Shown: piece after piece, positions 3,105-63,788 of the stretch
Numbering within the stretch: the stretch's first letter is position 1
Layout: every line of letters begins with the position of its first letter
Assembly: GCA_030038195.1 (NCBI GenBank)
Contig: JASHPJ010000040.1
Span: 30,533-94,532, forward strand
Source of the DNA: Acidobacteriaceae bacterium
GTDB taxonomy: Bacteria > Acidobacteriota > Terriglobia > Terriglobales > Acidobacteriaceae
Direction of reading: 5' to 3'
Length of the DNA stretch: 64,000 nt
The notes under the pieces: generated by a model
Databases searched by the model: none
What the model was told of the DNA's origin: nothing
What the model saw: the letters and a program-made list of their open reading frames with translations, nothing else
Program-made: the position numbers and the translations under genes

Positions 3105-4481
3105 ATGCCCAAATTGATCCCAGATCTGCAACCAACTGAACCTGACTCGGCAACGCTCGAACGGCTGGCGCACGTGGAGCGAGCCTTGCTGGTGGCAGTT
3201 ATCCTGCTCACAGCCGCGAACCTGGCCGGCTGGCTGTTTCTGGCCGCAGGCTGGAGCCTTCCCGACAGCAACGCGCTGATGAAGGCTCCGTCGGTGTTTG
3301 CCGCGCTTTTCTGTGCGCTCAGTCTGCAGTTTTCCGCCTCGCAATCCTCCAGCCGGATTCGCCGCCTGGGCGTGCTGCTGTCCCTGGCCTCCGCTCTGAT
3401 CTCTCTCGGCGTGGTCTGTGAATACGTTTGCCATATCTGGTTCGGCATCGATCTGCCCGTGGCGGCCAGCCAGAGCCTGATGTCCATGTTTATGGACCGG
3501 ACGTCTTTCCAGACCGCTGCAGGGTTTGCGAGTCTGGCGGTTACGATCCTGGTTATTCCGGCGCGCAGGCTGCCGGCGGTCGTCGCCGCGGATGTGCTGA
3601 CTTTTTTCCTGGTGCTCCTGGTGCTCGTCCTGGTGTCAGGGCACCTGCTCGCCGTCTCGCACGTCTTCGCGCCGACGTCCACGGTAGCGACCTCGTCGTG
3701 GAGCATGATTGCGCTGCTGCTGCTCACCGTTGTGGCGTTTTTGCGCAAGGCGGAAAACGGCGTCTACTCGATCCTGCTCGGCCACGGCATTGGCAGCAAT
3801 ATCGCGCGCGGACTTTCCCCCGTGCTGCTGGTGCTTCCCTATCTGCGCGAAACCCTGCGCGCCCGTTTCATCGGCTCGCGGCAGATGCCCCCTCACTACA
3901 CCACGGCCATTCTTGCTTCCCTCGCCGTGATGCTCTCCTTCGCGCTGCTGCTGTTTCTCGCCTGGCGCATCAACCGGATGGAGTTGGAGATTCACGACCT
4001 GTCTCTGCGCGACGCGCTCACCGATCTCTACAACCTGCGCGGCTTTCGCCTACTGGCCGAGCAGGCGCTGCGCATGGCCCGCCGCTCCGGCCTCTGTTTT
4101 TCGGTGCTCTTCATCGACCTGGACAACCTGAAGCGCACCAACGATACCCTCGGCCACCAGGCCGGGTCCGATTTCCTGGTGGAAACGGCGAAGATTCTCA
4201 AATCCTCCTTCCGCGAAGCCGACGTGGTGGGGCGCATCGGTGGCGACGAATTCGCCGTGGCCGGCCAGTTCAACCAGTCCGGAATCTCCCTGGCGGCGCA
4301 GCGCATCGAAGAGTCAGTGGCGCGGCGCAATGCGCAGAACAGCAGTGGCCCTCCGCTGAGCCTGAGCATCGGCTGCGTCACCTCGGAGTCGCTGCGCAAC
4401 GAGTCGCTGCCGGAGCTGCTGGCCAGGGCCGACCACGCCATGTACGAGGAAAAGCGCCGCAAGAAAATCCTGGTCAACTAG
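3105..4481 (+). CDS. membrane-anchored GGDEF diguanylate cyclase
   Basis: 458 aa; N-terminal TM segments then LSLRDALTDLYNLRGF...RIGGDEFAVAG; intact GGDEF and upstream RxxD I-site (READ). Confidence 0.92.
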   Translation: MPKLIPDLQPTEPDSATLERLAHVERALLVAVILLTAANLAGWLFLAAGWSLPDSNALMKAPSVFAALFCALSLQFSASQSSSRIRRLGVLLSLASALISLGVVCEYVCHIWFGIDLPVAASQSLMSMFMDRTSFQTAAGFASLAVTILVIPARRLPAVVAADVLTFFLVLLVLVLVSGHLLAVSHVFAPTSTVATSSWSMIALLLLTVVAFLRKAENGVYSILLGHGIGSNIARGLSPVLLVLPYLRETLRARFIGSRQMPPHYTTAILASLAVMLSFALLLFLAWRINRMELEIHDLSLRDALTDLYNLRGFRLLAEQALRMARRSGLCFSVLFIDLDNLKRTNDTLGHQAGSDFLVETAKILKSSFREADVVGRIGGDEFAVAGQFNQSGISLAAQRIEESVARRNAQNSSGPPLSLSIGCVTSESLRNESLPELLARADHAMYEEKRRKKILVN

Positions 4482-4642
4482 TGTGGTGTCCCAGAAGTTC
4501 GTATCATAAATTGACATCCCAGACCGCAGGTCCCGCCACGGCGGATCTTCGACCTTCGACTCTCCGCCGCGGCGGACCGCGGCGACCCTCGCTCAGGATG
4601 ACGGCGTATTTTGTGATACGAACTTCAGACTCAGGATACTAG
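4478..4642. repeat. dispersed palindromic repeat, copy 1
   Basis: Left CTAGTGTGGTGTCCCAGAAGTTCGTATCATAAATTGACATCC; right TGATACGAACTTCAGACTCAGGATACTAG; core CCTTCGACTC...GCTCAGGATGAC. Same architecture as the other four copies. Confidence 0.9.
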
Positions 4643-4799
4643 AGCGGTTTTCCAGATTACGTGGCACGGCCGGCGGCGTATCCGCCGCGGCGGACGTCTT
4701 TTTCTCAAGGAAAAAGAGACTGGAGAGTGGCGGCTTTGTCTTGCAGCAACCGGAAACTGCCGTAGTCAGCCAGCTCTCCCGGATCCTGCAAAATTTGCG

Positions 4800-4835
4800 T
4801 TGCATACTTATTCACCATTATTGTATATTTATACG
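4800..4835 (+). promoter_or_regulatory. tandem ARG boxes overlapping the argR operon promoter
   Basis: TGCATACTTATTCA (4801-4814) and TGTATATTTATACG (4822-4835), centre spacing 21 bp; overlaps candidate -35 TTGCAT (4800-4805) and -10 TATATT (4824-4829). Confidence 0.72.
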
Positions 4836-4900
4836 AGCGCGGTTTCCGCATTGCGGACCGCGCCTTCGATTTTTCTATGGGCAGCGCCGGAAATTTCGCA

Positions 4901-22724: not shown

Positions 22725-22867
22725 CTAGTGTGGTGTCCCAGAAGTTCGTATCATAAATTGACATCCCAAACCGCAAGCCCTTTGACTCCGTTTGGCCGAA
22801 AAATCGGCCAAACGTCGCTCAGGATGACAGCGTATTGGTGGTGCGAACTTCTGACTCAGGACACCAC
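22725..22867. repeat. dispersed palindromic repeat, copy 2
   Basis: CTAGTGTGGTGTCCCAGAAGTTCGTATCATAAATTGACATCC ... core hairpin GTTTGGCCGA-AAAA-TCGGCCAAAC ... GAACTTCTGACTCAGGACACCAC. Confidence 0.88.
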
Positions 22868-41228: not shown

Positions 41229-41402
41229 CCAGTGTCCTGTAACTGAAGTTCATAGCATAAGTTGAAATCCCGAACCGCAGGTTCCGCCACGGCGGATCTT
41301 CGGCCCGCCACGGCGGATCTTTGACCTTCGACTCGTCGCCGCGGCGACTCGCTCAGGATGACAGCAGTATTTATATTGCGAACTTCAGTTACAGGACACT
41401 AG
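41229..41402. repeat. dispersed palindromic repeat, copy 3
   Basis: Left AGTGTCCTGTAACTGAAGTTC, right GAACTTCAGTTACAGGACACTAG (20-bp perfect inverted match); core hairpin GTCGCC-GC-GGCGAC between CCTTCGACTC and CGCTCAGGATGACAG. Confidence 0.88.
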
Positions 41403-44723: not shown

Positions 44724-45731
44724 ATGGCTCAATTTCACGGCCTTGCAGCTCATGCAGCAGGAGCGGAACTCCTGCCTTATCACTACGACCCCGGCAAGCT
44801 GGGAGCGCAGGAGGTGGAGATCGCCATCACCCACTGCGGCATCTGCTACAGCGACCTTCATCTCATCTCCAACGACTGGGGCATCAGCCAGTATCCGTTC
44901 ATTCCGGGGCATGAGATCGTCGGCACGGTTGCGGCGGTGGGCAGCGACGTTCGGCTGCACAAGGCAGGCGACCGCGTGGGGCTGGGCTGGCAGTCGAACT
45001 CCTGTGGCGAGTGCGAATGGTGCATGAAAGGGATGGAGAACATCTGTCCCGCGTCCGAGGCAACCTGCGTGCGCCGCAACGGCGGCTATGCCGATCGCGT
45101 GCGCGCCAATGCGCGCTTTGTCATCGCTATTCCTGAAGCGATCAAGAGCGAGCACGCTGCGCCGCTGCTGTGCGCCGGCATCACGGTCTACAATCCGCTG
45201 CGCAGCCACGGCATCCACCCAGCATCGCGCGTGGGCATCGTCGGCATCGGCGGGCTGGGCCACCTGGCTATCCAGTTTGCGCGCGTCTTCGGCGCCGAGG
45301 TCACCGCGTTCTCGTCGTCGGCGGGCAAAGAAGAAGAAGTCCGCGCGCTGGGCGCGCATCACTTCGTGAATACGCGCGAGTCGAAGGCCATGAAAGAAGT
45401 GGCCGGCACGCAGGACTTCCTGCTCACCACCATCAATGCCGATCAGGACTGGGGCACCTACATCCAGGCGCTGCGGCCCACCGGCACGCTGTGCTTTGTG
45501 GGCGTTCCACCATCGCCCATCGCGCTGCATGCGTTTCCGCTCATTGCCGGCCTGCGCAGCGTGACCGGCAGCCCCATCGGCAGCCCGCACATGCTGCGCG
45601 AGATGATGGACGTGGCCGCGCGCCACGGGGTGAAGGCCACCACCGAAAACTTTCCCATGTCGAAGGCCAACGAAGCCATCGAGAAGGTGAAGAAGAACAA
45701 GGTGCGCTATCGGGCGGTGCTGGCGAATTAG
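44724..45731 (+). CDS. zinc-dependent NAD(P) alcohol dehydrogenase
   Basis: 335 aa; HCGICYSDLHLISNDWGISQYPFIPGHEIVGTV, GWQSNSCGECEWCMKGMENIC, GIVGIGGLGHLAIQFARVFGAEV. Confidence 0.94.
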   Translation: MAQFHGLAAHAAGAELLPYHYDPGKLGAQEVEIAITHCGICYSDLHLISNDWGISQYPFIPGHEIVGTVAAVGSDVRLHKAGDRVGLGWQSNSCGECEWCMKGMENICPASEATCVRRNGGYADRVRANARFVIAIPEAIKSEHAAPLLCAGITVYNPLRSHGIHPASRVGIVGIGGLGHLAIQFARVFGAEVTAFSSSAGKEEEVRALGAHHFVNTRESKAMKEVAGTQDFLLTTINADQDWGTYIQALRPTGTLCFVGVPPSPIALHAFPLIAGLRSVTGSPIGSPHMLREMMDVAARHGVKATTENFPMSKANEAIEKVKKNKVRYRAVLAN

Positions 45732-45868
45732 TGTCCTGCCCCCAAAGTTCGCAACATAAAAAGCCCCGAACCGCAGGTCCTTCGACTCCGTAAGCCGCAA
45801 AAAACGCGGCTTACTACGCTCAGGATGACAGCGTATTGGTGACACGAACTTCAGACTCAGGACACTAG
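45729..45868. repeat. dispersed palindromic repeat, copy 4
   Basis: Left TAGTGTCCTGCCCCCAAAGTTCGCAACAT, right GACACGAACTTCAGACTCAGGACACTAG; core hairpin GTAAGCCGC-AAAAAAC-GCGGCTTAC. Confidence 0.88.
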
Positions 45869-55834: not shown

Positions 55835-55976
55835 AGAGGTTGCTGAAAAAGTCCATTGGGCGTGAGAAGAATCCCGCAGCGGCTGAAGCCGACATTGCTA
55901 TGAAGCCTTTATGGCACGACTCAAAGTCGTTCCCTGACACTTCGTGCCTGTCGGGAAATATTTTTCAGCAAGCTCT
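55835..55976. repeat. MITE-like intergenic palindromic element
   Basis: AGAGGTTGCTGAAAAA ... TTTTTCAGCAAGCTCT (15/16 inverted match) enclosing CGGCTGAAGCCG and ACGACTCAAAGTCGT hairpins. Confidence 0.65.
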
Positions 55977-55983
55977 GAAGCCC

Positions 55984-56039
55984 GTACCATGCACTGAAGT
56001 CTGTACCAATCAGGCTGATGCTCGTACCATTCAAATTGA
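55984..56039. promoter_or_regulatory. three GTACCAT-type iterons upstream of purC
   Basis: GTACCATGCACTGA, GTACCAATCAGGCTGA, GTACCATTCAAATTGA at 55984, 56003 and 56024. Confidence 0.5.
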
Positions 56040-63611: not shown

Positions 63612-63788
63612 CTAGTGTGGTGTCCCAGAAGCTCGTATCCTAAATTGACATCCTAAAGCGCAGGTTCCACCACGGCGGATCTTTGACCTTCGACCTTCGA
63701 CCTTCGACTCAGTTTGGCGCAAAACGCGCCAAAATTCGCTCAGGATGACAGCTTATTTGTGATATGAACTTCTGACTCAGGACACTAG
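63612..63788. repeat. dispersed palindromic repeat, copy 5
   Basis: Left CTAGTGTGGTGTCCCAGAAGCTCGTATCCTAAATTGACATCC; right TGATATGAACTTCTGACTCAGGACACTAG; core hairpin TTTGGCGC-AAAAC-GCGCCAAA. Confidence 0.88.

Follow-up and report, generated by a model that had tools for sequence, protein, structure and literature searches.

A 159-bp repeat that completes the stop codon of a GGDEF gene, in a 64,000-nucleotide stretch of an Acidobacteriaceae genome (the window), is a non-autonomous MITE of the IS630/IS870 type and is new among IS630-related MITEs. We put the probability at roughly 0.9 that an IS870-type IS630 transposase inserted it at the TA of a CTAG target, and that the preservation of the stop codon followed from this. 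The GGDEF gene (3105 to 4481, + strand), delimited by its open reading frame, Pfam match and the ends of its orthologues, encodes a diguanylate cyclase domain, and its last codons read GTC AAC TAG. As originally predicted, the TAG (4479 to 4481) lies in the terminus of the repeat, where both the sequence and the reading frame place it: it consists of the left copy of the target TA (4479 to 4480), preceded by a C (C-TA/G), and the first G of the element (4481). The whole junction reads ...GTC AAC TA/GTGTGGTGTCCC...CTCAGGATAC/TA/GAGCGG, with the right TA at 4640 to 4641 followed by a G; both TA copies were assigned from the sequence and by comparison with other copies of the repeat. Hence, TAG is re-made because the TA is copied and the element starts with G.

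The element itself (4481 to 4639) is short and contains no gene, and it is bounded by imperfect terminal inverted repeats (GTGTGGTGTCCCAGAAGTTCG / CGAACTTCAGACTCAGGATAC) that form imperfect 33-nt arms, as is typical of MITEs. Its RNA is predicted to fold into a single long hairpin (-77 kcal/mol, z = -6.4 compared with shuffled sequences). A search of the draft genome (4.17 Mb in 153 contigs) for the two ends returned 83 + 90 end-like matches, versus 11 + 12 with a reversed control pattern. There are roughly 75 copies in the genome; we defined them within the ∼0.73 Mb of stretches around them as 59 two-ended copies and 18 single ends, which include a few contig-end duplicates. End matches and copy definition placed three intergenic copies in the window, at 22728 to 22864, 63615 to 63785 and 41232 to 41399, the last with 30-nt arms that are 87% complementary. 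A fifth copy (45731 to 45865; TA/GTGTCC...GGACAC/TAG) is the second in the window to sit in a stop codon. It follows a gene for a zinc-type alcohol dehydrogenase (44724 to 45731, + strand; from the stop tally and Pfam), whose TAG stop at 45729 to 45731 again consists of TA and the initial G of the MITE.

The ends of the MITE match those of autonomous IS630 elements. An insertion sequence from a congener (L140) belongs to the IS630 family, encodes DDE_3 and HTH_32 domains and has GTGTCCTGTCTCTGAA in its ends in common with the MITE copies. The transposase frame of this element continues across the right inverted repeat and terminates at GGA CAC/TAG, within the target duplication. A scan of genome contigs together with further searches identified relatives in several bacterial phyla. 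The end consensus of 110 distinct relatives with both ends defined, GTGTCCTGAGTCAGAAATTCG, matches the MITE ends, although the left end of the MITE deviates from it (GTGTGGTG versus GTGTCCTG), which counts against the relationship. CTAG was the target of 96 of these 110 elements. A transposase stop codon within the target duplication, the mark of an IS870-type IS630 element, was found in 75 (74 TAG and 1 TAA); in the other 35 the transposase stops inside or beyond the element. A MITE usually has a transposase in the same genome, which is not strictly defining. We detected no matching transposase in the host genome at E ≤ 1e-10 (97.5% complete draft), and we therefore infer mobilization of the MITE in trans from the elements of congeners.

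We propose that an IS870-type IS630-family transposase mobilizes the MITE or formerly did so. The enzyme would enter the TA of CTAG and duplicate the TA, and with an element whose first base is G and whose last is C both junctions would become CTAG again (C-TA/G...C/TA-G). Where the CTAG lies at the end of a gene (N-N-C/TAG), the upstream gene would still end in TAG, now with a final base contributed by the element, and its protein would be unchanged. In autonomous relatives the right-hand TA-G would double as the stop codon of the transposase. Stop codons would thus be harmless landing sites, where insertions may survive selection while those inside genes would be lost.

We next counted how often the MITE ends coincide with host stop codons, calling gene ends with a home-made codon-usage caller trained on the fetched stretches. 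At 13 MITE ends a called gene stopped exactly at TA plus the first base of the element, and the GGDEF case is therefore not a chance coincidence. Pfam domains were present in 11 of the 13 host genes, with only weak matches in one of these, and several domains reach to 2 to 10 residues from the end of the protein. Compared with unoccupied CTAG sites outside gene interiors of these stretches, of which 13 of 166 were in stop codons (153 intergenic), the MITE was enriched in host stops (∼13/72, with about 59 intergenic and an approximate total; odds ratio 2.6, p = 0.02). The autonomous elements with enough flanking sequence behaved similarly: 16 were in host stops, 74 were intergenic and 3 were inside genes. 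Their 16/90 compares with 9/182 for unoccupied CTAG in these flanks (9 in stops, 173 intergenic; odds ratio 4.2, p = 0.0009), and stricter settings gave odds ratios of 5.0 to 6.3. CTAG is strongly depleted in the genome, at 0.14 of expectation, and a considerable fraction of the few targets left are therefore stop codons. This scarcity and the loss of insertions inside genes account for most of the pattern. The stop-codon-safe mode of insertion put forward in the original prediction is thus real but looks passive, because insertion into CTAG gives CTAG back at both junctions: stops were enriched 2- to 4-fold over free CTAG, but the target is CTAG rather than stop codons as such, and most copies (∼80% of insertions) are intergenic. 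The related claim that the TA of either TAA or TAG would yield TAG stands for the re-making of TAG; among the original codons that could be read, all were TAG (C-TAG, once T-TAG), and no TAA had been converted. Stop-codon safety is therefore a side effect of targeting CTAG with an element that starts with G.

The new part is the modest excess at host stops, whose cause is either selection or targeting. We infer that selective survival lies behind it. Insertions at gene ends might alternatively have been kept for a useful hairpin, which could act, for instance, as a terminator or a 3' hairpin in the RNA, and the predicted fold directly 3' of the stop codon is indeed far better than that of shuffled sequences. 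However, inverted repeats required for transposition fold anyway, and the larger autonomous elements, which are not small hairpins, are equally enriched; we regard this explanation as improbable. Still less probable is active targeting, in which the transposase would recognize gene ends or translation termination beyond a CTAG preference combined with selection. The 2- to 4-fold over-representation of host stops relative to unoccupied CTAG outside gene interiors is what such targeting would produce, but about 80% of the copies are intergenic and the autonomous elements had no orientation bias with respect to the host gene, which was read toward the left end nine times and toward the right end seven times. 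Moreover, tolerated intergenic positions may be scarce among unoccupied CTAG sites, in which case selection alone can yield the excess.

The target and its duplication were read from the MITE copies directly. The outward dinucleotide was TA at 98 of 136 MITE ends, and most others had TG or CA, one transition away, as expected of decay. A G followed the TA at 82 of the 98 ends. Both flanking TAs were intact in 34 copies; in 27 of these the target was CTAG, the others being CTAA (2), GTAG (2), CTAC, ATAA and TTAG. In all seven of these non-CTAG copies the left 4-mer (NTAG) differed from the right 4-mer (CTAN) and a duplication of TA fitted, from which it follows that the duplication is TA, as in IS630-family MITEs, and not CTAG. 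Tandem copies of the MITE have a single TA in common. A paralogous empty site agreed: when the flanks of the copy at L116:8381-8560 were joined with one TA, they matched, without a gap, a dispersed-repeat copy in the window that lacks the MITE (55835 to 55987, - strand; GGCTTCCTAGCCATG versus GGCTTCATAGCAATG), and this copy has a single TA at the site. We used paralogous empty sites because the DNA of congeners was too diverged to reveal the TA at orthologous sites, where only the gene end could be aligned. Both the TA duplication with a G-first element and the single TA expected at an empty site had been predicted, and both were supported. For an autonomous relative carried by an Acidovorax plasmid, joining the flanks gave a sequence that aligned gapless over 400/400 bases with an IS5 transposase gene that has no interruption; there the site has one copy of the dinucleotide but reads CCAG instead of CTAG, which counts against the preferred target. 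Searches for the empty sites of two plasmid copies of the insertion sequence matched only the records themselves. A four-base CTAG duplication around an element with the ends TGTG...CA would explain why CTAG is found on both sides of most copies, but it is contradicted by the seven non-CTAG copies, all of which fit TA, by the tandem copies with only TA in common and by CATAGC at the empty-site paralogue, and we rejected it as hardly credible. The dispersed repeat (GTACGGGCTTCAGAGCTTGCTGAAAAA...TTTTTCAGCAA) occurs at 55835 to 55987 of the window and at L116:8261-8682, with the MITE in one of the two copies.

The stop codon of the GGDEF gene is where the gene naturally ends. Syntenic orthologues in congeners (acs-GGDEF-argR-argC) terminate no more than a few residues from this point, use TGA stops and lack the element, indicating that the element entered in this lineage. 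The protein has a complete GGDEF domain (Pfam, E = 5e-35) that reaches residue 453 of 458. An element that entered a Tyr codon (TAC or TAT) and thereby made the stop is mechanistically possible, and the copy at L107:6101-6259 is ambiguous, as its original codon may have been TAC; for the GGDEF gene we rejected such a truncation as extremely unlikely, since the far side of the element reads TA-G, the domain is complete and the orthologues end at about the same place. The L107 copy is followed at its right end by GTAC-TAC and not by TA, with GTACTA on both sides. Its right junction looks altered, and the same right flank is present at two other contig ends. Downstream of the GGDEF gene, at 4798 to 4850 of the window and upstream of argR, TTGCATACTTATTCACCATTATTGTATATTTATACGAGCGCGG is conserved in congeners and resembles an ArgR operator, making it a candidate for one.

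The DNA to the right of the element is not the ancestral flank of the gene. Repeat comparison identified a second, unrelated TA-bounded MITE at 4642 to 4762 (GAGCGGTTTTCC...GGAAACTGCCG), which adjoins the first with a TA in common and is followed by TA (4763 to 4764) and G. Consequently, the empty site AAC-TA-GAGCGG of the original prediction joins the gene to another repeat. The older end of the GGDEF gene was probably AAC-TA-GTCAGCC, which also reads TAG. As TA-GTCAGCC beyond the second MITE again gives TAG, the end of the gene seems to have received two insertions and to have kept its stop through both. Members of the second family are ∼115 to 121 bp long with the ends GAGCAGTTTTCCAG.../CAGCAGTTTTCCAG (for example L106:7756-7869, L124:5992-6104, L132:5851-5963 and L137:11495-11608); they lie beside the first family, with a TA in common, at about five sites and alone elsewhere. 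A subfamily with GAGCGTTTTCG is similar to the end of an IS630 fragment (L143) with which contig C152 of the host genome begins. We considered this fragment as a partner of the first MITE and rejected it, because its ends resemble the second family, of which, judged by this resemblance, it is the likely partner.

Several known systems have some of these properties. The title of the IS870 paper of 1993 (reference 93 in PMC6471742) states that the target supplies the stop codon of the transposase. By the rule in this title, and not by sequence, IS870 resembles the autonomous relatives described here, with their CTAG target and target-completed transposase stop; in contrast, the present MITE has no gene and it is the stop of a host gene that is re-made. 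IS630 transposes preferentially to the TA in 5'-CTAG-3' (Tenzen and Ohtsubo 1991, cited in PMC2170065), and work on ISY100 and IS630 described TA duplication and the CTAG preference of IS630 (PMC2170065). The likeness to our MITE lies in the target, namely insertion at TA, duplication of TA and, for IS630, the preference for CTAG, and not in the ends; the passages of PMC2170065 on these elements describe no effect on host stop codons. RUP of Streptococcus pneumoniae, a ∼107-bp MITE of IS630-Spn1 with TA targets and around 100 copies (PMC2229807, PMC3049150), is likewise non-autonomous with IS630-like ends, but differs in host and sequence, and reports place it close to IS elements rather than at stop codons. 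In S. pneumoniae, BOX elements provide the stop codon for 36 annotated genes without clear truncation (PMC3049150); there the stop lies within the repeat, whereas here it is rebuilt from the target and the first base of the element. MITEPsy1 of Pseudomonas syringae is also small and targets CTAG, but it is reported to make a four-base duplication (CTAG/YTAA) and is linked to an IS5-family element (PMC3189936). In the literature covered, which included few subscription papers, we encountered no account of IS630-type elements favouring host stop codons.

Overall, a transposon can enter the last codon of a gene and leave the protein unchanged, and three letters of sequence explain why. This connects the own-stop curiosity of IS870 from 1993 with a measurable excess at host stops, both for small non-autonomous repeats and for autonomous elements, in several phyla. 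For annotators it is a caution that the end of a gene and the end of a repeat can coincide exactly. More tentatively, and with the odds somewhat against it, CTAG targeting in this widespread IS630 group could be a two-sided adaptation that provides both a stop for the transposase and safe stops in the host, with about a sixth of the insertions hidden in gene ends; the palindrome might even hold the overlapping stops of two convergent genes. Indeed, in the PGAP-annotated Caballeronia plasmid pSBC1_4 (L290) an IS630 transposase gene (1510 to 2595) meets a convergent host gene on the other strand (2592 to 2909), and the CTAG palindrome at 2592 to 2595 contains the overlapping stop codons of both.
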